DNA from: a virus
Length of the DNA stretch: 48,606 nt
Strand: one strand, 5' to 3'
IMG/VR virus record: IMGVR_UViG_3300036859_000526
Location: 1 to 48,606 of that record
Numbering within the stretch: the first letter of the stretch is position 1; each line of letters opens with the position of its first letter. Below are positions 5,845-37,110 of the stretch, one piece after another. The translations under genes were made by a program, and so were the position numbers. The notes beneath the pieces are model-generated. The model ran no database searches, was not told the origin of the DNA, and was given only the letters and a program-made list of their open reading frames with translations.

Positions 5845-6059
5845 CGGCCCGCCTCGATCTGGCGTCGCTCTTGCTCCACAGGAGGTGCGGCGTGTGTCAC
5901 GGTATGCAGGGGTGTAAACGAAGGCAGGCTGCCGCAGACTTTAGGTTCCCCAGACGGCGCAGCGGGCACTTCCCCACGATTGGCGCGTTGCCTATCGAGG
6001 GTAGGCCCGGAAGTATATCTTATGTTACCCTGCGTCACAGGGCCTTTATACGTTGTCAA
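5841..6059 (-). CDS. Small hypothetical protein, TTG start
   Basis: 72 residues. The frame opens at a TTG at 6059, just inside the end of the regulator gene, and closes in an ATGA overlap with the next gene, a layout that supports coding. The protein is Pro- and Thr-rich without clear secondary structure (TPLHTVTHAAPPVEQE). No family recognised. An inverted repeat CCCTG-cgtca-CAGGG lies within its first codons and could affect expression. Confidence 0.4.
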   Translation of the reverse strand: MTTYKGPVTQGNIRYTSGPTLDRQRANRGEVPAAPSGEPKVCGSLPSFTPLHTVTHAAPPVEQERRQIEAGR

Positions 6060-6315
6060 GGTGGGCTTTCCGGCTCATCGCCGCCGCGACGGGAGACGGT
6101 TCGTCATCCTCAATAGCCACCCAGGCTTCCACAACGATGCCAGTGGCGGCTTCGATCTTGACTGCGTTGTCTAGTCCGGGGCGGCGCTTGCCGTTGAGCA
6201 CCATGCTCAATTGCGTCGGGTCGATCCCGATGACCTTGGCCGCTTCGAGTTGATTTAGGCGACTCCGCTCAATCCACTGAGCCAGTCGCTCCCGCCCGAT
6301 GAGTGTCGTTACCAT
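6046..6315 (-). CDS. Helix-turn-helix regulator (Cro/CI type) of the leftward operon
   Basis: 89 residues, XRE-type HTH: LNQLEAAKVIGIDPTQLSMVLNGKR, residues 20-44, gives helices 2 and 3 of the fold. The tail is acidic (AIEDDEPS). It is the first gene of the leftward operon and is divergent from a second HTH gene at 6419, the standard layout of a lysis-lysogeny switch. A strong promoter at 6323-6352 places the transcript start at or within a base or two of its ATG, so the message is probably leaderless. I favour a Cro-like role because the promoter also feeds the lytic genes, but which of the two is the maintenance repressor cannot be told from sequence. Confidence 0.8.
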   Translation of the reverse strand: MVTTLIGRERLAQWIERSRLNQLEAAKVIGIDPTQLSMVLNGKRRPGLDNAVKIEAATGIVVEAWVAIEDDEPSPVAAAMSRKAHLDNV

Positions 6316-6418: not shown

Positions 6419-6961
6419 ATGCCGCTGAAGGCCCTCGAGCAATTGCGCCAGAATATCGAAACCTTGCTCAGGGTCCGCAAGGAAGACCAGAAAACGCTCG
6501 CCGTGGCGATTGGCGTCCATCCCACCACGATCAACAAGTTTCTGAAGCGCACGCGCGAGTTGCAATTGGCAGACTTGGATAAGGTCGCCGACTTCTTCGG
6601 GATTGCGACGTATCAACTCTTCCAACCTGGGATCTCGAGTCTGTCGGAGCGCCGGCTCGTGGAACGCCGGGGCGGGCGGGAGCGGCGGATCGGCCACGCG
6701 CTCCGCGGCATGCACGTTGCTGCACAAGACATCCAAACCCACAGCCGTTCTGTAAAGGATGTCCCGCATGTCGTGGTCGCGCCCCCGCCGTCGCCGGCTG
6801 CCGCCGAGCTCAGACGCTACATTGCCGACTTTGAACGCCTCGCCAGCCGACTTCTTGCGCGGGCCGAGTCTGGGGGACAAGCTCCAAGTGCTCGCCTGGC
6901 ACTCCCCAGCCCACGTCCACGTCGTCGAGTTGCTGGTGGATCAGATCCTCAGAAACCTTAA
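6419..6961 (+). CDS. Helix-turn-helix repressor, long form
   Basis: 180 residues. The N-terminal domain has KTLAVAIGVHPTTINKFLKRTRELQ (residues 25-49), a clear HTH, followed by LDKVADFFGI as helix 5. The rest has no S24 protease (LexA/CI cleavage) motif that I can see. It contains a Pro-rich hinge (APPPSPAAAE), a helical segment (RRYIADFERLASRLLARAE) and a basic Pro-rich tail. A RecA-cleavable mechanism is therefore not supported. It heads the plus-strand cassette and faces the leftward operon across an operator, so it is the better candidate for the prophage repressor. No clear SD precedes the ATG. Confidence 0.8.
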   Translation: MPLKALEQLRQNIETLLRVRKEDQKTLAVAIGVHPTTINKFLKRTRELQLADLDKVADFFGIATYQLFQPGISSLSERRLVERRGGRERRIGHALRGMHVAAQDIQTHSRSVKDVPHVVVAPPPSPAAAELRRYIADFERLASRLLARAESGGQAPSARLALPSPRPRRRVAGGSDPQKP

Positions 6962-7102: not shown

Positions 7103-7246
7103 ATGCCACGGAAGAACCCGCACGCGGTCGCCCTCGGCCGCAGAGGCGGCAAGAAGAAGTCGCCTGCGAAAACGGCCGCGGCCCGCCGCAATGCGCGCAA
7201 GCCCCGGCCCCGGACACCCATCGGCCAGAAGAAAGCCCGACCATGA
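7103..7246 (+). CDS. Small highly basic protein
   Basis: 47 residues, begins MPRKNPHAVALGRRGGKKK and continues with alternating Lys/Arg/Ala/Pro to the end. It resembles the short 'GGK.......AAARRNARK' proteins found in many GC-rich bacteria and phages, probably nucleic-acid binding. Translation probably starts on a leaderless message from the promoter at 7065-7093. Its stop overlaps the next ATG as ATGA. Confidence 0.6.
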   Translation: MPRKNPHAVALGRRGGKKKSPAKTAAARRNARKPRPRTPIGQKKARP

Positions 7247-7584
7247 CCCGTCTGATCGCCATCATGCTCCTCAGTAGTCTCTGTGCGGCGTGCGGCGAGA
7301 AAGCCAGTCCGTCGACCCCGACGCCCGTCACCCCCGCGTGTCAAACGAACGCGACCGCGATCCTCCACTTCGAGAACCGCACCACGACGCGGACCCATGA
7401 CCTGTATCTCGACAACGCCAATGTCGCCCTGATCGGGCCGGGCCAGACCAGCCAAGCCTTTACCGTCGCGGCCGCCGTGCAGCACACCGTGCAATGGGTC
7501 TACACGAACACGCGGCTCGTCGCGTGTACCGCCACGCCCGTGCCGGCCATCTGTTCCACGACGACGTATTTTTGTGCGTTCTAG
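7243..7584 (+). CDS. Lipoprotein A
   Basis: 113 residues. A signal peptide MTRLIAIMLLSSLCAACGEK ends in a lipobox (LCAAC), so Cys17 is probably lipidated and the protein anchored in the inner or outer membrane. The mature part starts with a Ser/Thr/Pro linker and then a beta-rich domain (AILHFENRTTTRTHDLYLDN, VQHTVQWVY) with four more Cys that may form disulfides. The next gene has a near-identical signal, so the two probably arose by duplication. In prophages such lipoproteins often block superinfection or change the envelope; that role is inferred from position only. Confidence 0.8.
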   Translation: MTRLIAIMLLSSLCAACGEKASPSTPTPVTPACQTNATAILHFENRTTTRTHDLYLDNANVALIGPGQTSQAFTVAAAVQHTVQWVYTNTRLVACTATPVPAICSTTTYFCAF

Positions 7585-7618: not shown

Positions 7619-7804
7619 ATGAAACGTCTAATCGTCCTCGTGCTCCTTGCGAGTCTCTGCGCCGCCTGCGGCGACGTCATGGCCCCCTCGACCAGCCGTC
7701 CCACGCTCACACCCACGGCCACGCCCGTCTCGATCTGCGCGCCGCCGCCGGGATTTGAACTCGCCCCCTTGACGGGGATGCCGCGCGTCCTCCTCTGCCC
7801 GTAA
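7619..7804 (+). CDS. Lipoprotein B (paralogous signal to lipoprotein A)
   Basis: 61 residues. MKRLIVLVLLASLCAACGDV has the same signal and lipobox as the gene before it, including the identical SLCAACG. The mature region is short and Pro/Thr-rich (APSTSRPTLTPTATP) and ends with ICAPPPGFELAPL and one last Cys, allowing one disulfide. Short DNA similarity before both ATGs (cccatcggccag) supports tandem duplication. Start chosen at 7619 because the signal peptide begins there. Confidence 0.75.
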   Translation: MKRLIVLVLLASLCAACGDVMAPSTSRPTLTPTATPVSICAPPPGFELAPLTGMPRVLLCP

Positions 7805-7871: not shown

Positions 7872-8915
7872 GTGATCCTCTGCTCCGGGGCCTTTGACGG
7901 CCTCCACGCAGGGCATGTGCGGTATCTTGAAGCCGCCAAAGCGCTCTGTGAACCAGATGAGTTGCTCGTCTGTGCCGTCGCCCCGGACGCGTACATTCAG
8001 ACCGTGAAAGGCCGCGCACCCTCCTGGCCGCAAGCGCAGCGCCTGGCCACCGTCAAATGCTTGATGATGGTGGACGGCACGATCCGCCAAGAGAGTCTCA
8101 CCGTCGCACCGGTCATCCGAACGCACCTGCCCCGCCTGCTGGTCAAAGGCCCCGACTGGAAAGATCGCCTTCCCGACGAGGTGCATCGGGCCTGCGCCGA
8201 CGTGGGGACGACGATCGCCTTTGTGGACACACCGGGGACGCACGTGCGCGAGACGATCCGGAGTGATGAGGAGGCGCTCGCGCGATTCGAAGCGCTGGTC
8301 CTTTCCCAACAGCCCGCCGCGACGCCGTGGACGCCCGTCACGGATTATTCGTTCGAGAGCCGAAAGGCGATCGAGGGGATCCATCCCCAGTTGATCAAAG
8401 ACGTGTTCGCCCCGCGCATCGTCATGGACGCGGGCATGGGGCCGGGCCATCTCGTGCATCTGCTCCGCGATCTCGACGTGCGGGCCTTTGGCTTTGACAC
8501 CGGGCGCGGGGATACCTGCTACGGCAACCTCGCCTGTCCCTACCCCGAGACCATGCACCGGAATCCCGAGCAGCCGACGTGGCGGGGGTTCCCGAATCTC
8601 TGGCGCGGGTATGACCTCGTCATCTGCCGGGAAGTCCTGGAGCACTTGACCGTCCGCGACATCTGCCACGCCGTGCGGAATCTCTGCCACCTGAGTCGGC
8701 AGTACGTGTACGTCACGACGCGGTTTGCGGCCGCGCCGACGCATCTGCTCGACGTGGACACGGCCGACGATCTCGATCCGACACACATAAGTCTTCTGAA
8801 TATCACGTTGCTCCGAGCGCTCTTCGTACTGGAGGGCTTCAAGCGGCGCGCCGATCTCGAAGTGAAGATGGACTGGAAACAGGTGGGCCGGTGTCTGGTA
8901 TATGAGCGCGTTTGA
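7872..8915 (+). CDS. Cytidylyltransferase-methyltransferase fusion (RfaE/TagD-like N-domain)
   Basis: 347 residues, GTG start. Residues 1-140 form a nucleotidyltransferase domain: GAFDGLHAGHVRYLE carries the HxGH motif at 12-15, and LLVKGPDWKD matches the conserved V.G.DW region of RfaE2/HldE-C and TagD. Such enzymes activate a sugar-1-phosphate or polyol phosphate with a nucleotide. Residues about 160-347 look like a class I SAM methyltransferase: VMDAGMGPGHLV (184-195, motif I) and DLVICREVLEHL (249-259). The fusion could make and methylate one activated precursor. It starts the glycan set; the following gene overlaps its end by 14 bases. The substrate is not known. Confidence 0.8.
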   Translation: MILCSGAFDGLHAGHVRYLEAAKALCEPDELLVCAVAPDAYIQTVKGRAPSWPQAQRLATVKCLMMVDGTIRQESLTVAPVIRTHLPRLLVKGPDWKDRLPDEVHRACADVGTTIAFVDTPGTHVRETIRSDEEALARFEALVLSQQPAATPWTPVTDYSFESRKAIEGIHPQLIKDVFAPRIVMDAGMGPGHLVHLLRDLDVRAFGFDTGRGDTCYGNLACPYPETMHRNPEQPTWRGFPNLWRGYDLVICREVLEHLTVRDICHAVRNLCHLSRQYVYVTTRFAAAPTHLLDVDTADDLDPTHISLLNITLLRALFVLEGFKRRADLEVKMDWKQVGRCLVYERV

Positions 8916-9105
8916 TCTACATCTACGGACTCGGACGGAACTCAAACTCGTGGTTGAACTGTTGGCGTTCGGGGCAATGCACGGAGACGTCCCCTGTGTC
9001 GGCCCAGACCCCGAACAGCTGCGATTGCGGCGCATTTTGAACCGCGCCCAGCGGGGGCGGCCCATGGTGAGACGCTGGCGGCGGCGCGTCTGCGGGCATG
9101 ATTGA
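8902..9105 (+). CDS. Small hypothetical protein in glycan cassette
   Basis: 67 residues, unrecognised. It has a helical N-terminal half (TRTELKLVVELLAFGAM) and a very basic C-terminal half (RRILNRAQRGRPMVRRWRRR). It overlaps the fusion gene before it and the glycosyltransferase-like gene after it, so it seems part of the same translated unit. Confidence 0.6.
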   Translation: MSAFDLHLRTRTELKLVVELLAFGAMHGDVPCVGPDPEQLRLRRILNRAQRGRPMVRRWRRRVCGHD

Positions 9106-9931
9106 CGCGGTCCTGTCCTATCACCTCAACCCGCTCACGTGCGGCGTGGCGAAGTTCAATCAGCAACTCGCGCGCCGACTCGGCGTGCCGTGCTTGCCGC
9201 TGGACGCTGCGCCGTCGCATCCACTCGTGTCCATCAAGTTCTCCGAGATGGAGTTCCCGCTTGCCCTAGGCGAATGGCACAGAAACACCTTCGATCTACT
9301 CCTCCATGATCGGCAATGTCGACCAGACGCGGGCATCATCAGCCGCGCGCAACGCGTCTTCTACGCCGACGAGATCGGCTGCCCCTCCACGCTGGACGGG
9401 AACCCCAATCGCGGCCTGTTGAACGTGCTCCTCTTCGGCATGGCCCACAAACTCAACGGCCAGACAGTGTATCTCGATCGCGTGCGCGATCTGTTGGACC
9501 AATCCCGCGTCGACTACGCCGTGAGCGTCTCAACCGCGGTGCATGAAGGGACACCCTGGGACGGCGCGTTTACCACGACGGTGGAGACGTTGCGCCACGT
9601 GTTCGGGCCACGACTCCGCGTACTGGGGTATCTGGCCGATGATGCGCTCGCCCGCGAGCTCCAGACGTGCCAGGCCGTCGCGCTCTTCTTCGATCCGGCG
9701 GCGCGGGCGAACAACACCACGATCTGGGCGGCTCTCGAGGCCGGGTGTCCGTTGATCACGAACCTGGACTGCGACTCCCCCGCAGAGTTGATCCATAACG
9801 AGACCATGTTTGACCTCGCGCGGTTGACGGACTGGCCGCACTACCGGTTGCGTGATGACGTGGCGAAGCGCGGTAAGGTCCAGGCGAAGGGCCGGAGTTG
9901 GGATCAGCTCCTCGAGATCCTCCGTGCGTGA
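9098..9931 (+). CDS. Glycosyltransferase-like protein (GT-B C-domain)
   Basis: 277 residues. The N-terminal LSYHLNPLTCGVAKFNQQLARRLG is the start typical of GT4-type enzymes (G.a.f...LA..L), and the C-terminal NNTTIWAALEAGCPLITNLD matches the nucleotide-sugar site region of GT-B proteins (glycine/alanine-rich loop after a small-residue-Thr motif). At 277 residues it is shorter than usual GT4 enzymes (about 350-400), so the Rossmann domains must be reduced. It would transfer a sugar made by the neighbouring genes onto a lipid, polysaccharide or protein. Overlaps the genes on both sides. Confidence 0.6.
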   Translation: MIDAVLSYHLNPLTCGVAKFNQQLARRLGVPCLPLDAAPSHPLVSIKFSEMEFPLALGEWHRNTFDLLLHDRQCRPDAGIISRAQRVFYADEIGCPSTLDGNPNRGLLNVLLFGMAHKLNGQTVYLDRVRDLLDQSRVDYAVSVSTAVHEGTPWDGAFTTTVETLRHVFGPRLRVLGYLADDALARELQTCQAVALFFDPAARANNTTIWAALEAGCPLITNLDCDSPAELIHNETMFDLARLTDWPHYRLRDDVAKRGKVQAKGRSWDQLLEILRA

Positions 9932-10844
9932 GTTGACGATCGCCGGCCGGCGGATCGCTGATGACGCGCCGTGCTACGTGGTAGCGGAGATCGGCGGGAA
10001 CCACGGCGGAGATGTGTCCGTCGCGCGCCAGATGATCCGGGAAGCCGCGCAGTGCGGCGCGTCGGCGGTCAAGTTTCAGAAGCGAGAGAATGAGACGCTC
10101 TATGCCCACGAACTCCTCCAAAACCCGTATCAGAACGAAAACAGCTTTGGCGATACGTACGGCGCGCATCGAGCAGCGCTTGAACTTGCTCCGGGAAGCC
10201 TGCGGGCTCTTGGATCGACGGCTCGCGGCGTTGGAATCGCGTGCTTCGCCACCGCCTTCGACGAACGCTCCGCGGATTCTTGTGCCGAGTTAGGCTTTCC
10301 CGCGATCAAGATCGCGTCGGGCGGCTTGACGGATCTGCCCCTCCTCCGGCACGTGGCCGAGTTCGGCACCCCGGTGTTGCTCAGCACTGGCGGCGGGACG
10401 CTGGCCGACATCAACCGCGCTGTAAACGTGTTAGGCGCCTGTCCCCATGCGATCCTGCACTGCGTGGCAAGTTATCCGTTGCAGCCAGAGGAAGCGAACC
10501 TCCGCGTGATTGGCACCTTGCGCCAGCGCTATCCCTCCACCGTGATCGGGTTCTCGTCGCACTCGCCGGGGATCGCGTTCTCGTTGATTGCCTATGCGTT
10601 CGGAGCGCGCATCATCGAACATCACTTCACGTTGAACCGCGCGAGCAAGGGCACCGATCATGCCTTTAGCCTGGAGCCGAAAGGGCTGAGCACGCTGGTC
10701 GAGGACCTCGAGAAAATCCGCCGCGCGATGGGCGACGGGATCAAGCGCTACTATCCGAGCGAACTGGGGCCCATCAGCAAGATGCGGCGACGCCCCACGG
10801 CCCACGGGATGCAGATTACGGGAGCCCGCGATGCCCTTGATTGA
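9924..10844 (+). CDS. neuB: NeuB/SpsE-family nonulosonate (sialic-acid type) synthase, short form
   Basis: 306 residues from GTG at 9924. NeuB condenses phosphoenolpyruvate with an N-acetyl-mannosamine-type sugar to give a nine-carbon acid. Conserved signatures are complete: YVVAEIGGNHGGD (18-30), GASAVKFQKRE, TAFDERSAD, AIKIASGGLTDLPLLRHVA, VLLSTGG, HCVASYP, GFSSHSPGI, IIEHHFTLNRASKGTDHAFS and GDGIKRYYPSE. The usual family member has about 340-350 residues with a C-terminal SAF (antifreeze-like) domain that caps the partner subunit's active site; here the protein ends near the start of that domain. The cupin gene overlaps its end and NeuA follows, which supports a CMP-nonulosonate pathway. 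The exact sugar (sialic, legionaminic, pseudaminic or another) is unknown. Confidence 0.9.
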   Translation: MRELTIAGRRIADDAPCYVVAEIGGNHGGDVSVARQMIREAAQCGASAVKFQKRENETLYAHELLQNPYQNENSFGDTYGAHRAALELAPGSLRALGSTARGVGIACFATAFDERSADSCAELGFPAIKIASGGLTDLPLLRHVAEFGTPVLLSTGGGTLADINRAVNVLGACPHAILHCVASYPLQPEEANLRVIGTLRQRYPSTVIGFSSHSPGIAFSLIAYAFGARIIEHHFTLNRASKGTDHAFSLEPKGLSTLVEDLEKIRRAMGDGIKRYYPSELGPISKMRRRPTAHGMQITGARDALD

Positions 10845-11223
10845 ACGGTTTGAACCCCGTGAGCTCGGCCCGAAGCCCTGGGGCTCTGAACTCCTCATCG
10901 CGCAGACTGAGACGTACATCGGCAAAGTCCTCGTCATGCACGCCGGCCACCGCGGCGGGTTGCAATACCACCGCGTGAAGGATGAGACGTTCTACCTCGT
11001 GTCGGGGCATGCCGTTGTGACCTCCGACGACGGCGCCGGGTTGGTGATGCGGACGATGCACGAAGGCCAGAGTTATCACATTCCCCCCGGTGCCGTGCAT
11101 CAGGTGGAAGCCGTGACCGAATGTGTGTTTTTCGAAGTGTCGACGCCGGTGTTTGAGGACCGGGTACGGGTCGAGCATTTGTATGGCTTGCCGGAAACGG
11201 GCGGCTTGCCGACGAGCCGCTAG
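10831..11223 (+). CDS. Cupin, mannose-6-phosphate isomerase type II-like
   Basis: 130 residues, a single-cupin protein. KPWGSELLIA and the metal-site region GGLQYHRVKDETFYLVSGHAVV (His, Glu) with IPPGAVHQVEAV (second His) match the C-terminal cupin of type II phosphomannose isomerases and related sugar-processing cupins. It could isomerise or epimerise a sugar phosphate, or bind a sugar without catalysis. Overlaps NeuB by 14 bases and so is probably coupled to it. Similar small cupins are frequent next to NeuB/SpsE and cytidylyltransferase genes. Confidence 0.8.
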   Translation: MPLIERFEPRELGPKPWGSELLIAQTETYIGKVLVMHAGHRGGLQYHRVKDETFYLVSGHAVVTSDDGAGLVMRTMHEGQSYHIPPGAVHQVEAVTECVFFEVSTPVFEDRVRVEHLYGLPETGGLPTSR

Positions 11224-11426
11224 TCCCATGTGTCAGTGTCGAAAATCTTCGAGAAATAGAGGCGCTTGGGTGGTGGCGGAATGGTCTCGTTATATCGGCA
11301 GCGCCACTGGCCGCCCTCGAATCGGCAAGTGACATATGTCGCGCCGTGGTCGTCGACCGTCACGAGCATGTGTGAGCCGTTTGATGCTGGGGTTCCGCAC
11401 ATCTGGCAGATTGCCTTATAAGCCAT
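11220..11426 (-). CDS. Small zinc-ribbon-like protein, opposite strand
   Basis: 68 residues: MAYKAICQMCGTPASNG, then VTCRFEGGQWRCRYNE, giving C-x2-C...C-x8-C, likely one zinc site. It is the only minus-strand gene inside the plus-strand glycan block. It converges on the cupin with a four-base overlap and starts seven bases from NeuA on the opposite strand. There is no obvious SD before the ATG. Coding is supported by the Cys pattern and sensible composition, but it could be chance. Confidence 0.5.
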   Translation of the reverse strand: MAYKAICQMCGTPASNGSHMLVTVDDHGATYVTCRFEGGQWRCRYNETIPPPPKRLYFSKIFDTDTWD

Positions 11427-11432
11427 GACACT

Positions 11433-12176
11433 ATGGTAGCACTCATTCCCGCCCGCGCCGGGAGCCAGCGCGTCACCGGCAAGAATACGAAGCCGTTGGG
11501 CGGAGTGCCGTTGATCGCCTGGACGATTGCGGCGGCGCAGGAGAGCGGCGTCTTCGATCGCGTCTGTATCGCCACGGATGATCCGGCCGTTCGTGCGCTG
11601 ACCCCGTGGGATGGCCGGACGTTCTTTCATGATCGCGCGCCGGTCGCCGATCATCAGGCGGACATTGACTGGATCCGCGAATACCTCTCGGCTCATCCAC
11701 GCCCATATACATTCGCCGTTCTCCGCCCCACGTCGCCCTTCCGCACGGCCGCGACAATTCAGCGCGCGTATAAAGCGTTCACCGTGTGCGATGGGACGCA
11801 CGACTCGCTGCGCGCCGTCGAGCCCGCCAAGCAACATCCCGGCAAAATGTGGGAATGGGCGGGGCGCGGCTATCCCATCACGCCGCTCTTGCGAGGCACG
11901 CGATCGGATGGCGTCCCCTGGCATTCCTGTCCGACACAGACCTTGCCAATCTTCTACGTCCAGAACTCCTCGCTGGAAATGGCGTATACCGCAAACGTCG
12001 AGGCGCACGGCACAATCCACGGGCGGAAGGTGATGCCGTTCTTCACGGAGGGCCTGGAAGGCTTTGCGATCGATTACCCGGAGGACTGGGACCGGGCGGA
12101 GCGGCTCGTCTCGTCGGGCGCGGTGGCAATCCCGCGGGCCTTCAGAAACTTGCGGTCATTGACGGAGAGCGCGTAA
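11433..12176 (+). CDS. neuA: NeuA/PseF/SpsF-type CMP-nonulosonate cytidylyltransferase
   Basis: 247 residues. N-terminal ALIPARAGSQRVTGKNTKPLGG is the CTP-binding signature of acylneuraminate cytidylyltransferases (ARxGSkxxxxKN). Further matches are PLIAWTIAAA, VCIATDDPAVR, FAVLRPTSPFRT (the LRPTSPFR motif near the sugar site) and GLEGFAIDYPEDWDRAE at the end. The enzyme loads the NeuB product with CMP for transfer. The N-terminus is intact and the length is normal for the bacterial family. The minus-strand gene 12074-12304 overlaps its last 103 bases tail to tail. Confidence 0.88.
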   Translation: MVALIPARAGSQRVTGKNTKPLGGVPLIAWTIAAAQESGVFDRVCIATDDPAVRALTPWDGRTFFHDRAPVADHQADIDWIREYLSAHPRPYTFAVLRPTSPFRTAATIQRAYKAFTVCDGTHDSLRAVEPAKQHPGKMWEWAGRGYPITPLLRGTRSDGVPWHSCPTQTLPIFYVQNSSLEMAYTANVEAHGTIHGRKVMPFFTEGLEGFAIDYPEDWDRAERLVSSGAVAIPRAFRNLRSLTESA

Positions 12177-25493: not shown

Positions 25494-25717
25494 TGGCGGA
25501 GACAGTTCTGTAAGCCTTCCATCGTGTACCGCGCGTAGTCTTTCGCTAACGAGAAGGTTCGATACCCTGCCAAAGACCGCGCCACGAGCCGCTCACGTCG
25601 ATCGCGCAGTTGCCAGTGCCACTGTCCGCGACGCTGAAAGACACGAAAGTGCATCGTCCACGTCCTTTCTCGGACCCACGGCGTGCCATGGCCGCACGCA
25701 AACCGGACCCGGATCAT
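25490..25717 (-). CDS. Small protein with CGHGT motif, copy 1
   Basis: 75 residues. MIRVRFACGHGTPWVRER shares its start with the following gene, but the rest diverges into a basic Trp-rich segment (FQRRGQWHWQLRDRRERLVA) resembling a short DNA- or sugar-binding motif. It lost the CxxC knuckle. ATGA overlaps on both sides. Confidence 0.55.
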   Translation of the reverse strand: MIRVRFACGHGTPWVRERTWTMHFRVFQRRGQWHWQLRDRRERLVARSLAGYRTFSLAKDYARYTMEGLQNCLRQ

Positions 25718-26379
25718 TGGGGGCCTCCCACGTAGCCGGCCCGCACGGCCCGGCGCAGACTTCTGGAGCGGTTCGGGGCCGATCCGTGGACCGTCCAGAG
25801 GTCAAACCACACAACGTCTCCTGCCGCCGCCTGGGGCTCCACCAGCGTCGGCGGGACGTCCGCCTCGGCCAGCGCTTTCTTGCCAAAGGCGCAGGTGTGG
25901 GGGAGTAACCCGCGCGTGTGCGACCCAGGCGCCAGCCGCAGTGACCCGTTGTCTGGGGTCACATCATCCAGATAGACGTTCGCAATCACGAGACGCCCGT
26001 TCTCCGGCGCGTAGTAGATGCCGTCCTGGTGGAGCGGGAACGTCTGCCCGATCTTCGCCGGCTTGATAATCCCAACCGCCTCATCCAGAAACGCGGGCGT
26101 CCCGAGCAGTTCGCCGGCCGTGCTCCGCAAGACGCCGTGACAGACGTCGTGCCATGCCGGCGAGCGGTTCACGAGATCACGAATCGGCAGATACCCCAAG
26201 CCCGCTTCGGCCGTCAGCCACGGGCCGGTCCAGGGCAGCCGACCACCCACCACGAGCAGGCGGTCGAGCTCGTCGCGGAGTCCTCGGACGGCGTCGGGCG
26301 CGAGCACGGCGCGCTGATGCCAGTAGCCGTCGGCGTGAAACGCCGCGACGTCGGCGAGCAGGCTGATCACTGCCGCCAT
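25714..26379 (-). CDS. Phytanoyl-CoA-hydroxylase (PhyH) family Fe(II)/2-oxoglutarate dioxygenase
   Basis: 221 residues from an ATG at 26379 that overlaps the adaptor gene by 13 bases. The iron triad is visible: FPLHQDGIYY (His117, Asp119) and VHGSAPNRS (His198), with the 2-oxoglutarate-binding Arg near residue 206-209. NGSLRLAPGSHTRGLLPH is also conserved in the family. PhyH enzymes hydroxylate small molecules, lipids, sugars or amino-acid side chains. Its location inside the structural operon suggests that it modifies a virion component or a glycan, though the substrate is unknown. Normal size, apparently intact. Confidence 0.85.
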   Translation of the reverse strand: MAAVISLLADVAAFHADGYWHQRAVLAPDAVRGLRDELDRLLVVGGRLPWTGPWLTAEAGLGYLPIRDLVNRSPAWHDVCHGVLRSTAGELLGTPAFLDEAVGIIKPAKIGQTFPLHQDGIYYAPENGRLVIANVYLDDVTPDNGSLRLAPGSHTRGLLPHTCAFGKKALAEADVPPTLVEPQAAAGDVVWFDLWTVHGSAPNRSRSLRRAVRAGYVGGPQ

Positions 26380-27173
26380 GGATACGGCACCGGCTGTTCG
26401 ATGTCCGCGCCTCGTCGACCGCGCACTTCGGAGAAATAGTTCCGGCCGAGTTTCACTTGCTGCCCGCCTTTCGGTTGCTGCGCTTTCAGGTACCGTTCGA
26501 CGTAGCCCAGAAACTGCTGCATCTGGGACTGGCTCGCCTGCTCGTTCAAGCGGAGTTTTTCCAGTTCGTGGGCCGCGTAATGCACCGCCGCCGGGTGATA
26601 CGGCTCGAGATCCGTGCGCGTCGTGCTCCCGAACGTGAACGGCACATCCGTGTCTGAGGTCATCTCCGCCGGCTTGGCCAGGTACGGCAGGACGATCTGC
26701 CCCGTCTGGCTCGACGTGATGGACGGCGGTGGCACGAGCCCGAAGAAGCGCCGCCCACCGTCGACGCGCTCGTAGTACGCCTGCGGCGTCCCGCTCGTCG
26801 TGGCGCGCCAGCCTGGCTCGTACTGATTCAGCCACGGAATCTCGCGGCGCGGAAACTGATCCGGCCCCGCAATAAACGTCGTGCTGTTGCTGCTCGTGCC
26901 GCCACTCGTCACGTGGTGATATTCCGGGCCTTGCTTCGCGAGCCGCAGATAGTCCCCACTCGGCACGGAGACGGTCGAGAGCAGGTTGTATTCCGCCACC
27001 CCATTGGAACAGGTCACCGTGCTCTGCCGCACGGCACATTCCGTCAGATCGGTAAATGCGAGGACGCCGTTATTGATCGCGGTCTTGCGCCGCGCATCCG
27101 TAAAGAGGCGCGTCGAGTCATCGGTCCCGAGTTCCTGTGTGAGCGCCGACGAGTAGAGATGCGAGAACACCAT
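26367..27173 (-). CDS. Head-tail adaptor-like structural protein
   Basis: 268 residues. The first part (SHLYSSALTQELGTDDSTRL with FTDARRKTAINNGVLAFTDL) is a helical domain; the end (EPYHPAAVHYAAHELEKLRL, QQFLGYVERYLKAQQPKGG) has helices of the sort found in adaptor or connector proteins that bind the portal. The pattern 'P.....Y...V..A...L..L....' is common to head-to-tail connectors of podoviruses. TAATG overlap with the gene before it. Confidence 0.6.
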   Translation of the reverse strand: MVFSHLYSSALTQELGTDDSTRLFTDARRKTAINNGVLAFTDLTECAVRQSTVTCSNGVAEYNLLSTVSVPSGDYLRLAKQGPEYHHVTSGGTSSNSTTFIAGPDQFPRREIPWLNQYEPGWRATTSGTPQAYYERVDGGRRFFGLVPPPSITSSQTGQIVLPYLAKPAEMTSDTDVPFTFGSTTRTDLEPYHPAAVHYAAHELEKLRLNEQASQSQMQQFLGYVERYLKAQQPKGGQQVKLGRNYFSEVRGRRGADIEQPVPYPWRQ

Positions 27174-29440: not shown

Positions 29441-30048
29441 TAGGTCCGCAGCCCCGCCCGGCCCTGCGCCGCGAATCCCTGATAGCCGAGTTCGGCGAGC
29501 AGATGCGCGTCGGGATTCGTCAACGTCGAGTCCGCCTGCGTGAGCTCATGGACCACTTTCAGATGCCGGAAGACGTTCTGCGCCTGTCCTGGATTCGTTT
29601 TGATGAGCCGTGAGTACTGGATCCAGGCTTGCGGATCATGAAAGCCGAGCGTCGTCGCACAGGTACGTACGCGTGACCGCGCCATCCCCCAGTCGGGGCT
29701 CTGCATCACCCGGATCACCCGTTCGAGCACCGCGAGTTGTTCCAAATCCAGCGCGTCCAGCCGCGTGCTCCAGGGCGTAGGGGCGATCTGTTCGGCCCAG
29801 ACGCGCCACGTCCACACCCGGCGCGCAATCCACCAGCTCCACTGGATCCGCCGGCCGGTGCGCTGCAGCCAGTTCCGCGTAACGTGGTGCCAGTGCCGGA
29901 TCCGGTCGAGCGGGGGCCCGAAGATGACCAGCGTGAGCACGGAGGCTTGCCACAACGGATAGCCCCCAATCGGCGCGGCCGACACGACCGGCGGCGCATT
30001 CGCTTTCGCGCGCCAGAACTTGTGATGAAATTCCCCGGCGACCGGCAT
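29440..30048 (-). CDS. Hypothetical protein, Trp-rich
   Basis: 202 residues from a TGATG overlap at 30048. The middle is Trp- and Arg-rich (HWHHVTRNWLQRTGRRIQWS, WWIARRVWTWRVWAEQ) with helices (LDLEQLAVLERVIRVMQ). One hydrophobic stretch (ASVLTLVIFGPPL) could span a membrane. No family recognised. It lies between a methyltransferase and the fibre-like gene in the structural operon. Confidence 0.55.
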   Translation of the reverse strand: MPVAGEFHHKFWRAKANAPPVVSAAPIGGYPLWQASVLTLVIFGPPLDRIRHWHHVTRNWLQRTGRRIQWSWWIARRVWTWRVWAEQIAPTPWSTRLDALDLEQLAVLERVIRVMQSPDWGMARSRVRTCATTLGFHDPQAWIQYSRLIKTNPGQAQNVFRHLKVVHELTQADSTLTNPDAHLLAELGYQGFAAQGRAGLRT

Positions 30049-30608
30049 CAGGGGCCATCCTTCGTCGCCACCACACTCACACACGACACCTCGGTCGTGG
30101 AGAGCCAGCGCTGCCGGATCGTGAGCCCCGGGAGCAACCGCGCCTGCAGCGCCGCGTCGTCATAGACCCGGTGTGAGGTGCCTTCCACGCGGTAGCCCGC
30201 CGGCTCATACGGCACATCGAGATAGACCCACCCGCCCAGCTTCAGCCACCGCACGACGCGCGCCATGGCGTGCACATCGCCGTCCACGTCGAGCGGGTCC
30301 TGGTCGTAGTGCCCCAACCCGATATGCTCCATGGAGGACACCCCGACCATGACGTCGAAACTCGCGTCTGGAAACTCCTGCGTCAACACGTCACCCTGAA
30401 TCACCGTGCCCGGTCGGGTACACTTGCGCCAATCGATCCCCGTGATGACCAGATCCGGCCGCAGCGCGAGCATCGGCGTGATCCAATCCGCTTCCGCACA
30501 GCCCACCTCGAGCACGCGGGCCTGCGGCGGAAAGTCATACGTGCCCGTCGCATACGCGTCCGCCCAGAGGGACAAACAGATGTCTCCGCGGTGGGCAAAG
30601 GTCCTCAC
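30048..30608 (-). CDS. SAM-dependent methyltransferase, DUF268-like
   Basis: 186 residues, GTG start in a GTGA overlap. VLEVGCAEADWI is motif I of class I methyltransferases; VIQGDVL and DVMVGVSSMEHIGLGHYDQD resemble DUF268 proteins (SSMEHIGLGRYGD), a family associated with polysaccharide clusters; LKLGGWVYLDVPY is motif VI-like. It would transfer a methyl group to a sugar, lipid or protein. Inside the virion operon it may modify a structural glycan. The substrate is unknown. Confidence 0.75.
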   Translation of the reverse strand: MRTFAHRGDICLSLWADAYATGTYDFPPQARVLEVGCAEADWITPMLALRPDLVITGIDWRKCTRPGTVIQGDVLTQEFPDASFDVMVGVSSMEHIGLGHYDQDPLDVDGDVHAMARVVRWLKLGGWVYLDVPYEPAGYRVEGTSHRVYDDAALQARLLPGLTIRQRWLSTTEVSCVSVVATKDGP

Positions 30609-31929: not shown

Positions 31930-32490
31930 CTAGAACCGCGTGATCAGGTACCGGATCGTCGCCGACGCCGACGCGACCGTGAGGGTCGAGACCTTCACGA
32001 AGCGACAATGGAATTCGCCCACCGTGCTCCCCGGGTAGGAATTCGCCAGGCAGCAATCCGTACTCAGGTTCACGCCGTTCACGAGCACGAAATGACTCGA
32101 ATTGAGCCCAGTGACGGCATGGGTCGTTTCCATGACCATCGCGTTCGTCGTGGCAAAGTTGGGTGTGGCAAACGACGAGGCGCCGCGAATAAACCCCCCG
32201 AAGGGCGCGGTGCTGCCGACTTGGAGGATCCCGCCCGAACTGATCGTGATGCCCGTGCTCGCAGGAAACACGATCGGGCTCGAGGAATTCCCGATCCGGG
32301 TGGGCCCCGTCCCTTTGCCCCCGACGTTCAAGGCGATATTGGCTTCGTCCCCAGCCGCCGTGACAATGCCGCCGGTGGATCCCCCCGTCAGATGCACCCC
32401 GTGCGAGCTGCCCCCATTGCTCGAGACGTTCGTCACCACGTCGCCCTGGTAGTGGACGAAGCCGTTCAGATTCGTACTGCGGAATTCCAT
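31930..32490 (-). CDS. Structural protein, tandem paralogue B (MEFRSTN type)
   Basis: 186 residues. MEFRSTNLNGFVHYQGDVVT and GGSTGGIVTAAGDEANIALN, with GKGTGPTRIGNSSSPIVFP, closely follow the upstream gene. The C-terminal region (CCLANSYPGSTVGEFHCRF) is almost identical to it, whereas the N-terminus is less so. Beta-rich with GG- and ST-rich strands, resembling the shaft/tip region of phage fibres. Copies differ in a conserved Cys pair (DCCLANS is shared). Confidence 0.65.
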   Translation of the reverse strand: MEFRSTNLNGFVHYQGDVVTNVSSNGGSSHGVHLTGGSTGGIVTAAGDEANIALNVGGKGTGPTRIGNSSSPIVFPASTGITISSGGILQVGSTAPFGGFIRGASSFATPNFATTNAMVMETTHAVTGLNSSHFVLVNGVNLSTDCCLANSYPGSTVGEFHCRFVKVSTLTVASASATIRYLITRF

Positions 32491-32502: not shown

Positions 32503-33066
32503 TTAGAACCGCGTGATGACAAATTGAATCGTGGCCGTCGTCACAGTGACCGCCAGCGTCGAGACCTTGATGAAGCGACAATGGACCTCGCCCACGGTGC
32601 TCCCCGGGTAGGAATTCGCCAGGCAGCAATCCGTACTCAGGTTCACCCCTTGCGCGTCCACGAAATGGCTTGAATTCACCCCCGTGATCGCATGGGTCGT
32701 TTCGATCACCATTTTGTTGGTACTGGTGAAGTCTGGCGTGGACACGGCCGTATCCGTAAACCGGATCCAGCCGGCGAATGGGGCCGTGCTGCCGATCTGG
32801 AACGTCCCGCCGGTGCTGAGGGTAATCCCGCCCCCGCCATAGACGAGGGGACTGGAGGAGTTTGAGACGATGACCGCGCCAGTGCCCTTGCCGGTCAGAT
32901 TCAGCGTGACGTTGGCCTCATCCCCCGCGGCCGTGACAATCCCGCCGGTGCTGCCGCCACTGAGCTGGACGCCGTGCGAACTGACCGCCGCGGCATTGCC
33001 GACGTTGCTGACCACGTCCCCATGGAAATGGACGCGCCCGAAGACGTTCGTACTGCGAAATTCCAC
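32503..33066 (-). CDS. Structural protein, tandem paralogue A (MEFRSTN type)
   Basis: 187 residues from a GTG at 33066 that follows an SD (GGAGGT). VEFRSTNVFGRVHFHGDVVS with GGSTGGIVTAAGDEANVTLN and GKGTGAVIVSNSSSPLVYGG matches the next gene, and DCCLANSYPGSTVGEVHCRF matches it almost exactly. First structural gene after the major capsid gene. Its leader can form a branched hairpin (33087-33144). Confidence 0.65.
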   Translation of the reverse strand: MEFRSTNVFGRVHFHGDVVSNVGNAAAVSSHGVQLSGGSTGGIVTAAGDEANVTLNLTGKGTGAVIVSNSSSPLVYGGGGITLSTGGTFQIGSTAPFAGWIRFTDTAVSTPDFTSTNKMVIETTHAITGVNSSHFVDAQGVNLSTDCCLANSYPGSTVGEVHCRFIKVSTLAVTVTTATIQFVITRF

Positions 33067-33086
33067 CGCACACCTCCAGGGGACGA

Positions 33087-33144
33087 CGCGGACAGGGGCT
33101 GTCCCTGGATGCAGGACCCCGGCGGCTCGGGGCACCTGTCCGCG
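33087..33144 (-). promoter_or_regulatory. Branched hairpin between capsid and tail genes
   Basis: A 10-bp outer stem (33087-33096 with 33135-33144) encloses two smaller hairpins, CCTG/CAGG (33104-33107 and 33112-33115) and CCCCG/CGGGG (33117-33121 and 33128-33132), a three-way junction. It lies 24 bases past the major capsid stop and before the SD of the next gene. With no U-tract it is unlikely to be a simple terminator; it may limit read-through or protect message ends. Confidence 0.5.
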
Positions 33145-33168
33145 CACGCGCCGCGCTCGTGACCTACC

Positions 33169-34089
33169 TCACGCGCCCGCCGTCCCGAACGAGTTCTGCC
33201 ACCACTTGTTCCCCCAGGATCGGCGGAACCGAATCGGGTAGAGCCGGTTGCGCGTCCGCGGATCGGTCATCGCCGGTTCCATGGACATCGCCACGCGGGT
33301 GTAGGAGCAGAACCCATGCTGGCTCTTGGTGCTCGAGAGCAGGAACCAGGCATCGGTGTCCGTCAGATACACGTTCTTGACCACCGAGATGTTCCGGAGC
33401 GTCTTGATCGTGTTGAGGTCGTTGTCCGCCACGCCCGGCTGCAGGGTCGAGTTCACGATTTTCGCGGCCGTGAATTCGAGTTCGGGCGGGACAAACAGGA
33501 TCAAGTCCTCAACGGGCATCATGTTCTGCCCGGCTTCGAACTTGGTTTCCCGCTGCCAATCCACCAAGGCTTGCTGGAGCGAGGTCCAGGAGAGATCCGC
33601 CGCGCTCGCCAGGATGTTCCGCGCGGTCCCGCCGCCTTTCAGCACGTGGGTCGCGTTGAAGATCGAGACGCCGTCCGGACTTTGCTCCGATCCGAACCCG
33701 TTGTTGAACAAGAGCGCCGCGCGCTTCTCTTCCACGACTCGGGCCGAGAACATGAACCACTTCGCGTGATCGGACAGCACGTCGTAGCGGTCATCCTCCA
33801 GCGCCGTTTGGCTGACTTCGAACATCAGCCCGAATTCGGTATGGAGGAACTCTTTCGTGTACCCGACCTTGATGACGTCGGTTGCGTACGGCATCCCTTC
33901 GCCTTTTTCAGGGACATCGCCGACGCCCGTGACGGTCGTGATCAACTCCGAGCGTTTGCCCGAGTCTTTGACGTTATAGACCCGGCGCCAGATCGGCTTC
34001 TGTTCTTTCCATTCCTTGCCCAGGAGCGTGAAGACGGTCCGGTCCAGATTGTCGTGAAGCTCTGTGAAAGTGCCGCGTGTTTGGGCCAT
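33169..34089 (-). CDS. Major capsid protein (Mu gpT-like HK97 fold)
   Basis: 306 residues, strong SD (GGAGG) before the ATG. The N-terminus (TELHDNLDRTVFTLLGKEWK), the SELITTVTGVGDVPEKGEGM and YTKEFLHTEFGLMFEVSQTA segments, and the C-terminal YPIRFRRSWGNKWWQNSF fit the Mu-like capsid family (gpT). The scaffold and decoration-like genes lie just upstream and the tail genes downstream, as expected for the capsid. No cleavage signal is visible. High expression is suggested by the strong SD. Confidence 0.8.
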   Translation of the reverse strand: MAQTRGTFTELHDNLDRTVFTLLGKEWKEQKPIWRRVYNVKDSGKRSELITTVTGVGDVPEKGEGMPYATDVIKVGYTKEFLHTEFGLMFEVSQTALEDDRYDVLSDHAKWFMFSARVVEEKRAALLFNNGFGSEQSPDGVSIFNATHVLKGGGTARNILASAADLSWTSLQQALVDWQRETKFEAGQNMMPVEDLILFVPPELEFTAAKIVNSTLQPGVADNDLNTIKTLRNISVVKNVYLTDTDAWFLLSSTKSQHGFCSYTRVAMSMEPAMTDPRTRNRLYPIRFRRSWGNKWWQNSFGTAGA

Positions 34090-34102: not shown

Positions 34103-34735
34103 CTAGACCGTGATCGTCCCAGTGCGCACACTGAGATGGACGTTGGATGACAGGAACTTGAACACCACGGGTACGCCCCCGCTGTCGCCGAGGGCATCCG
34201 AGGGGAAGTCCGTGATGATCACCATCGCGTCCGCGACGGTGGAGTTGGTCGAATCGATGAAGTACCGGTTGAGCGTGGAGTCGAAGACGATCCCGCGCGT
34301 CAGCCCGATCAGGGAACTGGCCGCGACCGGGGTCGTGCCCGCGCCGCCCGATTTGAAGTAGCCGAGGAATTCCGTGACGCCGTCGGCAATCGCCACGCCG
34401 ATTTTTCGGGTGACGGGCAGGCCCGACTGCGAGCTGTCATCGACGAACCCGGCGGTGCCGGCCGCGGATCCGCCCGTGGTGCCTTCGACGGCCCAGCCGA
34501 GAATCTGCGCGCCCCCGATGTGCGCGAGGTTGGCCCCGCCCCCAGCGGTGGATTCATCACGCCGGACGCGGAAGCCGCCCGTCGTGACAATCGTGTTGTT
34601 GCGCACGAGGTCGCCCACGTTGATCTGGGCCGAACTCGCCGCGGTGCTTTCCTGGTAGTAGCGGATCTGCGGGGAGCCCCACGGCGACCGATACGGCCGC
34701 GGCCAACTCCCCGAACTGTTCGTCCATTGCGCCAT
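34103..34735 (-). CDS. Head decoration-like protein
   Basis: 210 residues from the ATG at 34735, which has a strong SD (TTAGGAGG). Beta-rich with Gly and Ser (TAASSAQINVGDLVRNNTIV, GGFRVRRDESTAGGGANLAH); a GVTEFLGYFKSGG motif follows. Immediately upstream of the major capsid gene, it fits a capsid decoration protein, though no clear family match. An extended, structured leader lies before it (34758-34917). Confidence 0.65.
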   Translation of the reverse strand: MAQWTNSSGSWPRPYRSPWGSPQIRYYQESTAASSAQINVGDLVRNNTIVTTGGFRVRRDESTAGGGANLAHIGGAQILGWAVEGTTGGSAAGTAGFVDDSSQSGLPVTRKIGVAIADGVTEFLGYFKSGGAGTTPVAASSLIGLTRGIVFDSTLNRYFIDSTNSTVADAMVIITDFPSDALGDSGGVPVVFKFLSSNVHLSVRTGTITV

Positions 34736-35173: not shown

Positions 35174-35665
35174 TTACTCCTCGAGGGAAACCCGCTCCAC
35201 GGAATCCTTAATCTCCATCGTCTGCACAGCCCGGTTGAGGAGGTCCGCCGCCTGGTCCCCATGCTGCGCGCTCGCGGCATTCACGATCGCGGCTTTGTTG
35301 GCTTGCGGGCTGAACGTGTTCTTGCGGTTCGTGGCCTCTTTCAGGATTTGCACTTGCCGGTAGTCGGCGTGCTTCATCTTCATGAGCACTTCCTGACCCC
35401 GCGTGCCCCGCACGATCCGTCCGTCCAGTTCCCGGAACCCGATCTCGTGCGGCTCGACGGCCAGATCCCCGCGCTCCAGATACACCCAGCCTTTGTCGGA
35501 TTGCATGTCCCAGGAGCGGGCGTCGCTGATCTCGGTATTCACGATCCGGATCGTCCAGGTCTTGGGATCGACCAGCGGAATCGGCTTGCTGCCGGCCGAG
35601 AAGATGCTGCCGGACTTCAGCCGGCGTTCGATGATCGAGATCTCCCGCTTCGCGGCTTTCGGCAT
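35174..35665 (-). CDS. Hypothetical head-region protein
   Basis: 163 residues. Basic N-terminus (KAAKREISIIERRLK), a beta-rich middle (KPIPLVDPKTWTIRIVNTEI, KGWVYLERGDLAVEPHEIGF) and a helical C-terminal part (NKAAIVNAASAQHGDQAADL, LNRAVQTMEIKDSVERV). It lies between scaffold and the RHH gene, so a head or accessory protein is likely. Family not recognised. Confidence 0.6.
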   Translation of the reverse strand: MPKAAKREISIIERRLKSGSIFSAGSKPIPLVDPKTWTIRIVNTEISDARSWDMQSDKGWVYLERGDLAVEPHEIGFRELDGRIVRGTRGQEVLMKMKHADYRQVQILKEATNRKNTFSPQANKAAIVNAASAQHGDQAADLLNRAVQTMEIKDSVERVSLEE

Positions 35666-35667
35666 GC

Positions 35668-36498
35668 TCAGTCTCCCAGGATATTGATCGCGTCAGGTTT
35701 GTACGTCTTGGCCGTCTCGCTCCACTTCTTCTCGTCCATGCCCGTCGTCCGCGCCATCTTGCGTTCCATGTCGGTGATCCGATAGTCACCGGCGCGCTGA
35801 CCACCCGGCGCTTCCGTGAACACCGGTTCAGACTCCGACCGACTCACGCGTTTGCCGCTGCGCACGGCCCGGCCCACGGCGGCTTCCAGAATCACGCGCG
35901 CCACCTCTGGATTTGCGGCCAGTTCAGGAGGAAACTCCGCCCACATGCGCGCGAGCTCTTGCGGGTCCACCAGCGGTTGCCCGTCCGGGGTTTGCTGCTG
36001 CGCCGCCCAGAGGTAGTTGCTCCGCGCCGCTTGCGTCGCCGTCGTCTGCGCATACGGTTGGATGGCTTCATGCGCCGCTTGCCGGGCGACCTTGGACATC
36101 TCCGCCCGGTTGTCCGCGATGATCCGCTTTGCCCGCGTCGTATCCAGGCCAGTCGGGGTATACAGCTCGTATTGCCGCGCGTAGCGTTCGGCGTCATCGT
36201 CAGAGACGTCCGGGACATCTTCCTTCGGCGCCGCCTTCAGCATGTCGGGATGCTTGTTCAGGTAATCGATGTGCGGCTGCAAGGCCGCGAGATCCGCCGC
36301 GAGCTGATCGCGCTCGGCCGCTTTCTGTTTGATCGGCTCGTATTCGGCGCGGATCTTCTCTTCGGTTTTCGTGCGGGCGCGTTCCCGTTCGGCCGTCAAG
36401 GCGGTCACGGGCACCATCTTCTGGCCCTGGACTTCGACGACGCCTTCGGGTTCGGGCTCTGTCGTGGCGGGAGTCTCAACAACAGGTTCGTCAGCCAT
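35668..36498 (-). CDS. Scaffolding protein
   Basis: 276 residues, highly charged and helical with an acidic N-terminus (EPVVETPATTEPEPEGVVEV), a coiled-coil (RARTKTEEKIRAEYEPIKQK), Ala/Gln-rich helices and a basic C-terminal end (MERKMARTTGMDEKKW). Such charge distribution and position before the capsid gene fit phage scaffolding proteins. Overlaps the co-chaperonin by eight bases. Confidence 0.7.
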   Translation of the reverse strand: MADEPVVETPATTEPEPEGVVEVQGQKMVPVTALTAERERARTKTEEKIRAEYEPIKQKAAERDQLAADLAALQPHIDYLNKHPDMLKAAPKEDVPDVSDDDAERYARQYELYTPTGLDTTRAKRIIADNRAEMSKVARQAAHEAIQPYAQTTATQAARSNYLWAAQQQTPDGQPLVDPQELARMWAEFPPELAANPEVARVILEAAVGRAVRSGKRVSRSESEPVFTEAPGGQRAGDYRITDMERKMARTTGMDEKKWSETAKTYKPDAINILGD

Positions 36499-37009
36499 TC
36501 TCAGTACCCTCAGTCATTCGACGAGCGTTCGCCACGGTCGTGGCGCTCCAGTCGCCTGGAAAGACGTAGTCGTTCGATTCAGGTTCCACAACCGCCAATA
36601 AATCAGACTCATGCAAGATGATCAGCACGTCGCCGTCAATGATCATTTCCTGCCCCGCGTCCGGCGAAAAGAGCACGTCATCGCCGACCGCGACGCAGGG
36701 ATGGCGCCGCACCAGATCCCGGAGCAGATGCGCCGCGTCCTCAATCACCCCGTCATCGTCGAGGGTGGAGCGGATCACGGCGTGCACTTTGGCCGCGAGT
36801 GTGTCCGCTTCGTGCGAGAGCGGATGCCGCGGATTGCCCACGGCGACCACGGTCCCGCGATGCACCGAGGTGCTGGCATCTTCACCCGTCACGGCCGCAG
36901 CGAGGGACTTCGCGACCACGACGCCGGACGCAAGGGTTTCGGGCGCGTTGGCCGACACGTCTGGCCGCACCAGGACGCGGTCACCAAGCACACGCAGTGG
37001 CAGACTCAT
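36491..37009 (-). CDS. groES: GroES-like co-chaperonin with large insert
   Basis: 172 residues. LRVLGDRVLVRPD, GTVVAVGNP, VAVGDDVLFSPDAG and GDVLIILHESDLLAVVE align with GroES. Between residues 60 and 105, where GroES has its roof loop, there is an insert of about 45 residues with helical character (LAAKVHAVIRSTLDDDGVIE, DAAHLLRDLVRRH). The mobile-loop region (16-50) is also longer, and about 30 residues follow the fold. Phage co-chaperonins (T4 gp31, RB49 CocO) let the host GroEL fold the capsid protein. Its place among head genes fits that. The ATG at 37009 overlaps the previous stop as ATGA. Confidence 0.85.
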   Translation of the reverse strand: MSLPLRVLGDRVLVRPDVSANAPETLASGVVVAKSLAAAVTGEDASTSVHRGTVVAVGNPRHPLSHEADTLAAKVHAVIRSTLDDDGVIEDAAHLLRDLVRRHPCVAVGDDVLFSPDAGQEMIIDGDVLIILHESDLLAVVEPESNDYVFPGDWSATTVANARRMTEGTENG

Positions 37010-37110
37010 CGCGGTCCCCCAGCGAATACGCCGAACAACGCAAAGAGCGTCATACAGAGCGCGAACGCGCACCAGTAGACGGCCCATTGGGTCGCGGTCC
37101 AGCGCTTCAC
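37006..37110 (-). CDS. Tiny membrane protein
   Basis: 34 residues, GTG start overlapping the previous stop. WAVYWCAFALCMTLFALFGV is a single hydrophobic helix. No family recognised. Overlaps at both ends suggest it is translated with the head genes. Confidence 0.55.
   Translation of the reverse strand: MKRWTATQWAVYWCAFALCMTLFALFGVFAGGPR

Follow-up and report, generated by a model that had tools for sequence, protein, structure and literature searches.

A glycan cassette usually resident in the head operon of an uncultured phage family: a candidate pathway for virion glycosylation

The DNA analysed here (the window) is the entire IMG/VR virus record IMGVR_UViG_3300036859_000526, 48606 bases in length. 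It carries a glycan cassette of six genes. Five are found on the plus strand at 7872-12176 and encode a nucleotidyltransferase-methyltransferase fusion (CTMT), a glycosyltransferase (GT1), a NeuB-family synthase, a cupin, and a NeuA-type cytidylyltransferase. The sixth encodes a second glycosyltransferase (GT2) and is found on the minus strand at 41947-42897. In the uncultured and widespread phage family concerned, these genes usually reside in the head operon, and it is proposed, with a probability of about 0.5, that they form a protein glycosylation pathway owned by the phage, whose target late in infection would be the phage virion itself. The parts shown by sequence, predicted fold, or synteny are the enzyme families, the set of six genes, the single NeuB origin, and the usual head-operon residence.

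Relatives were gathered by alignment searches with NeuB, GT2, capsid, and terminase and by a gene-order map, which yielded 47 contig groups that carry two or more head genes of the same phage family. In 27 of these, the head operon contains cassette genes, placed between the putative decoration and capsid genes and a homologue of g35174 (35174-35665, minus strand), the gene assigned by gene order as directly preceding the cassette in most relatives. In a further 11 groups, cassette genes (GT2 or the complete set) are found directly upstream of the terminase or portal gene. The junction is free of cassette genes in two divergent groups, L152 and L156 (terminase identity 40-44%), and neither NeuB nor GT2 was found in the 43-kb record of L156. 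The remaining seven groups are short fragments. Contigs retrieved via NeuB or GT2 are biased toward presence of the cassette; cassette genes are nevertheless present in all 13 groups that were retrieved via the terminase, measure 9.9 kb or more, and carry a portal gene. Measurements on 15 head-operon contigs placed every marker gene on one strand, with the first cassette gene starting -8 to +49 bases from the end of the upstream head gene and frequently overlapping it by 4 bases. A 4-base gene overlap is typical of translational coupling.

The order CTMT-GT1-NeuB-cupin-NeuA, first noted in the window, is mostly kept in ten viral contigs whose NeuB is 57-62% identical, and in many of these a GT2 homologue follows. 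Because this homologue comes after NeuA in relatives, GT2, which adjoins the terminase gene in the window, is counted as the sixth cassette gene. The initial annotation had listed the five plus-strand genes, which do exist, and had overlooked this sixth one. Its enzyme assignments at 7872-12176 were upheld in profile scans. CTMT (7872-8915, plus strand) combines a nucleotidyltransferase domain similar to HldE domain II (Pfam CTP_transf_like, residues 4-109; rfaE_dom_II profile E 3e-16, under the cut-off) with an S-adenosylmethionine (SAM) methyltransferase domain (Methyltransf_23, residues 176-324). It has homologues in relatives, in many of which it is split into two separate genes. A small entry in the open reading frame (ORF) list without a Pfam match (8902-9105, plus) overlaps both CTMT and GT1 (9098-9931, plus). 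The NeuB-family synthase (9924-10844, plus), dependent on phosphoenolpyruvate (PEP), has a GTG start and matches PDB entry 6ncs with E 3e-45. The cupin (10831-11223, plus; Pfam Cupin_2, E 3.4e-10, and MannoseP_isomer) is present in relatives and is possibly a sugar isomerase or epimerase. The NeuA/PseF-type cytidylyltransferase (11433-12176, plus) matches the cytidine monophosphate (CMP)-sugar synthetase family CTP_transf_3 (PF02348; E 3.6e-17, 63 bits against a curated cut-off of 23) and scores 72 bits with the PseF profile, whose cut-off of 206 is not reached.

The five genes had also been described as packed with overlaps. This holds from CTMT through the cupin, where the successive overlaps are 14, 8, 8, and 14 bases when the small ORF at 8902-9105 is included, but the cupin and NeuA genes are 209 bases apart. 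This gap holds a small Cys-containing ORF on the opposite strand (11220-11426, minus), which was read from the sequence, has no Pfam match, and interrupts the cassette. The six enzymes have no clear membrane segment (top 19-residue hydropathy mean 1.6), and the genes scanned included none recognisable as encoding lipid-carrier, flippase, or export functions. A promoter and terminator scan gave matches no more frequent than chance. An additional SAM methyltransferase, MT2 (30048-30608, minus; Pfam DUF268/Methyltransf), is found near the portal gene or inside the cassette in relatives.

The TIM-barrel domain of the window NeuB was identified with high confidence (PF03102; E 2.6e-71, 240 bits against a curated cut-off of 22). 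Its best profiles are NeuB, NnaB, and PseI, which keeps it apart from 3-deoxy-D-arabino-heptulosonate 7-phosphate (DAHP) and 3-deoxy-D-manno-octulosonate (KDO) synthases; identity as a housekeeping KDO/DAHP enzyme was considered and is unsupported by the profiles. The equivalog cut-offs were not reached for either N-acetylneuraminate synthase (TIGR03569; 235 bits, cut-off 400) or pseudaminic acid synthase (TIGR03586; 189 bits, cut-off 340). In alignment with 1xuu, the PEP and metal ligands (K50, K129, H213, H234, and E22 in window numbering) are invariant in 26 family and 84 cellular NeuBs. The SAF domain had no match in the window or L006 protein, the phage NeuBs tested, and is present in both cellular NeuBs tested. 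Residue 134 (E134 of N. meningitidis) is Asp or Glu in all 84 cellular sequences, whereas 22 of the 26 phage-family NeuBs have Gly, Ala, or Ser; in the window it is Gly. The window NeuB thus lacks both the C-terminal SAF domain and the acidic residue 134 that characterize N-acetylneuraminate synthase. Loss of the SAF domain matters because the function of Caulobacter NeuB requires an arginine of this domain together with an N-terminal glutamate (PMC7591256). The phage product should not be named sialic or pseudaminic acid. The earlier term nonulosonic acid is warranted only in part: with SAF missing and residue 134 usually non-acidic, it does not fix the exact sugar.

Both glycosyltransferases were assigned largely from predicted structure. 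GT1 has no Pfam family match, and the call of a GT-B-like protein at 9098-9931 was nevertheless sustained by its AlphaFold2 model (predicted local distance difference test, pLDDT, 91.8), in which VIA aligned the GT4-like C-terminal domain (residues 100-277) with GT4-type GT-B enzymes at Z scores of up to 15.3. GT1 is conserved in relatives. For GT2, the longest ORF extends to 43017 and the start is probably the ATG at 42897. Its model (pLDDT 89) has a predicted GT-B fold nearest to GT9 heptosyltransferases, with VIA Z scores of 15.1 for 3tov and 15.0 for 1psw, as compared with 12.1 for the best UDP-N-acetylglucosamine (UDP-GlcNAc) 2-epimerase and 12.0 for TibC. Searching PDB sequences with profiles of GT1 and GT2 gave nothing useful. 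On these models, GT1 and GT2 would provide the phage-encoded glycosyltransferases expected of a virion glycosylation system.

The presence of two activating enzymes and two GT-B transferases points to a short glycan built from two or more sugars, including an ulosonic acid that is activated with CMP. In the proposed pathway, the cassette genes would be expressed together with the head genes. NeuB would condense PEP with a host aldose to give a 3-deoxy-2-ulosonic acid, which the NeuA-type enzyme would convert to a CMP-sugar. CTMT, with the cupin and MT2, may make another nucleotide sugar, which would be partly methylated and perhaps heptose-like. GT2, as a soluble, GT9-like enzyme comparable to TibC, would act in the cytoplasm to place the first sugar on a head protein, and the second would be added by GT1. 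The resulting glycan would coat one of two candidate acceptors: the major capsid protein (33169-34089, minus; Pfam Phage_capsid_4, PHROG head proteins) or a putative decoration protein (34103-34735, minus), which was assigned by position and family alignment, is encoded just upstream of the capsid gene, and consists of 20% Ser/Thr. Decoration of the virion is favoured because of the head-operon position and because precedents exist: mycobacteriophages glycosylate capsid and tail tube (PMC12363180), Caulobacter flagellin undergoes cytoplasmic O-glycosylation by FlmG with a NeuB-made sugar (PMC7591256), and TibC is a GT9-like protein heptosyltransferase (PMC4358343).

Phylogenetic analysis of 71 NeuB sequences placed the 26 family NeuBs in one clade (support 99/91), and a branch with all of them on one side was recovered in 99% of 200 bootstrap trees. 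The simplest reading is a single NeuB acquisition followed by a change of substrate. A broader scenario is held only tentatively, as somewhat less probable than its opposite: a single ancestral acquisition would have given the family a nearly self-contained sugar pathway in its head operon, with a reshaped synthase making a sugar that is neither sialic nor pseudaminic acid and with a new acidic glycan on the capsid. In 80 bacterial loci with NeuB relatives, a NeuA homologue is nearby in 60 and phage head genes in none. Two of the loci, L149 and L138, share the order NeuB, short-chain dehydrogenase/reductase (SDR), aldehyde dehydrogenase (ALDH), NeuA, transketolase, with SDR and transketolase confirmed by Pfam, and CTMT, GT1, and GT2 homologues are found as well in L116, L138, L146, and L149. 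Bacterial NeuB, ALDH, NeuA, and transketolase genes occur together at L149:9051-16204, L138:4514-12745, and L073:10001-15408 (with SDR in L149 and L138), and these loci apparently represent an uncharacterised ulosonic-acid-type pathway in several phyla. NeuB is also encoded in other viral contigs (L026, L027, L029, L031-L033). Since most of these other viral NeuBs fall outside the family clade, phages have acquired NeuB-type genes more than once.

Pairwise distances were compared between genes of the family. GT2 distances correlate with those of the capsid (r 0.82, 28 contigs) and portal (r 0.85, 22 contigs), as do portal and capsid distances with each other (0.82), and NeuB and capsid distances give r 0.54. 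The co-variation of GT2 is taken as a sign of long residence and not as a demonstration that GT2 acts on the capsid. Several observations count against a pathway devoted to the virion. Linkage alone would also be expected to produce the co-variation of GT2 with the capsid. NeuB and terminase distances show no significant correlation (r 0.13, 12 contigs); members may have swapped NeuB genes, or 12 contigs may be too few. GT9-like, HldE-like, and CMP-ulosonate enzymes are typical of lipopolysaccharide (LPS) core synthesis too, and in the window genome five of the six cassette genes are oriented opposite to the late genes.

This orientation was examined in the light of the relatives. An exact 120-base direct repeat at both contig ends (1-120 and 48487-48606), within a pentapeptide-repeat gene, makes it very probable that the window represents a whole phage genome which maps circularly. 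Host DNA joined during assembly was considered as the source of the cassette and was rejected as unlikely: besides the terminal repeat, cassette genes stand beside head genes in 38 other contig groups, and the GC content of the cassette region is similar to that of the remaining genome. The earlier view of a phage-borne cassette is hence retained. In L008/L150, L002/L151, and L034/L039, the five-gene block is found past the tail genes on the late-gene strand, with GT2 near the terminase. The window has a similar arrangement with the block inverted, and in L030 (record G435) the block likewise runs opposite to the capsid gene. In the window genome, the five-gene block would thus have moved to the plus strand by a helix-turn-helix (HTH) gene, with GT2 staying among the late genes. 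The HTH regulator, or repressor (6419-6961, plus; Pfam HTH_3), is divergent from a second HTH gene (6046-6315, minus), and the same divergent pair occurs in L153/L248, a relative with a head-operon cassette. A tyrosine integrase is present in four of 16 family records (L013, L018, L021, and L002), and temperate phages seem to coexist in the family with others that are possibly lytic; neither a tyrosine integrase nor a serine resolvase was found in the window genome. Because relatives, among them three with an integrase (L013, L018, and L021), have a head-operon cassette, its position beside the HTH gene is read as a derived local rearrangement and not as a sign of a family-wide prophage function. 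A different timing of the five plus-strand genes is conceivable in the window genome alone.

Alternative functions differ chiefly in the target of the glycan. The main rival holds that lytic growth includes remodelling of the LPS core or a different surface glycan of the host, which would free progeny from debris and block competitors. This is possible though rather unlikely. GT2 resembles WaaC/WaaF, the nucleotidyltransferase resembles HldE, NeuB and NeuA parallel KdsA and KdsB, and the cellular relatives sit in glycan loci; yet none of the carrier and export functions named above was recognised among the genes scanned, and a head-operon position offers no special reason for a host target. 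A still less probable role is lysogenic conversion, in which expression from the prophage, beside the repressor, would alter the host surface. The initial annotation had treated the cassette as the prophage-expressed arm behind the repressor, and the plus-strand position in the window and the integrases of some relatives fit this idea. As a general rule it found no support. Morons would be expected outside the late operons and near a repressor or integrase throughout the family, whereas the cassette occupies the head operon in most relatives, integrase-bearing ones among them. The window genome, taken as complete, lacks integrase and resolvase genes, and the capsid profile gave only one distant match (E 2.3e-34) in 396 genomes, in which no prophage of the phage family was found. 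Among the outcomes offered at that time, a decorated virion is now favoured and a host-surface change from the prophage appears less likely.

Two further possibilities concern the chemistry of the cassette. GT2 could be a NeuC-like UDP-GlcNAc 2-epimerase which feeds N-acetylmannosamine to NeuB, with ordinary sialic acid then attached by GT1. The top Foldseek match of GT2 is indeed a UDP-GlcNAc 2-epimerase (1v4v, E 6.7e-6), and the GT-B-type fold is common to both kinds of enzyme. However, VIA ranks GT9 enzymes higher (Z 15 against 12) and the one Pfam match of GT2, although weak, is Glyco_transf_9 (13.9 bits, under the cut-off of 22). A transferase role also suits GT2 better because two or three GT2 paralogues lie next to each other in cellular loci, and the residues and domain structure of the phage NeuB do not favour sialic acid, which together make the epimerase reading quite improbable. 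Modification of phage DNA by the cassette transferases is the least probable of all, at the edge of what need be considered. DNA-glycosylating phage glycosyltransferases are known (Pyle 2024, as cited in PMC12619734) and the window phage has a DNA methyltransferase, but no thymidylate-synthase-type (hydroxymethylating) enzyme was found in its genome and the cassette is grouped with head genes instead of replication genes.

Other genes of the window are recorded here beside the features they adjoin. Between the HTH gene and the cassette, two small lipoprotein-like ORFs (7243-7584 and 7619-7804, both plus) have similar signal sequences and are candidate host-surface-acting genes. An exonuclease and an Erf-type annealing protein (1223-2634, minus) form a recombination pair which could have aided movement of the cassette. 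Just downstream of the capsid gene, tandem duplicated Ser/Thr-rich proteins are encoded at 31930-32490 and 32503-33147 (minus), with a 238-base repeat that is 80% identical. The head operon includes a Cpn10/GroES-like co-chaperonin domain (36491-37087, minus), annotated in a similar place in Roseobacter phage CRP-902, and the tail genes include a phytanoyl-CoA dioxygenase (PhyH) domain protein (25714-27039, minus), possibly another modification enzyme.

Among cultured phages, a comparison can be made with CRP-902 (OQ401624). Its capsid is 30% identical and its head genes are similarly arranged, the capsid gene being preceded by GroES and two small genes. It differs in that the cassette is absent and the two small genes, gp58 and gp59, are 22 bases apart. 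As homology of gp58 and gp59 to the putative decoration protein and g35174 was not detected, an empty cassette site in this phage is suggested by gene order alone. In the collection of cultured phages, GT1, GT2, and the portal had no match, NeuB matches were just 28-35% identical, and capsid matches about 30-33%. No earlier description of such a cassette was found in open-access literature text. The bacterial loci L149 and L138 encode homologous NeuB, NeuA, CTMT, GT1, and GT2, but they also have the SDR, ALDH, and transketolase genes which the phage cassette lacks, and their NeuB keeps SAF and Asp/Glu134; a homologue of the phage cupin was not found in these two loci.

Among systems known to glycosylate proteins, TibC and BAHT (PMC4358343; PDB 4rap, 4rb4) share with GT2 a GT9-like GT-B fold (Z 12), and the acceptor of TibC is a protein in the cytoplasm. 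TibC, however, acts on autotransporters with ADP-heptose, and LPS heptosyltransferases align better with GT2 (Z 13-15). The Caulobacter NeuB/FlmG system resembles the proposed pathway in using an ulosonic acid and a soluble cytoplasmic enzyme on a self-assembling protein without a lipid carrier (PMC7591256); it differs in being cellular, in making pseudaminic acid with a NeuB that has the antifreeze-like (SAF) domain, and in relying on FlmG, another transferase. Few phages are known to have glycosylated particles, and for these the work has centred on phage glycosyltransferases. For those of mycobacteriophages Che8, Corndog, and Myrna, cytoplasmic action on capsid or tail proteins has been proposed (Freeman 2023, as reported in PMC12363180 and PMC12619734). 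By comparison with that account, the window family is a candidate case in which genes for sugar synthesis and activation are also carried, in the head operon. Virion glycosylation is already known, and a synthesis-and-transfer pathway resident in the head operon would be a new variant of it. If this reading is correct, some phages make their own surface sugar during particle building, and the family is a possible source of new cytoplasmic protein glycosylation enzymes. The comparison with relatives further shows that a position next to a repressor does not by itself make glycan genes agents of lysogenic conversion; gene order in related phages can reverse such a reading.

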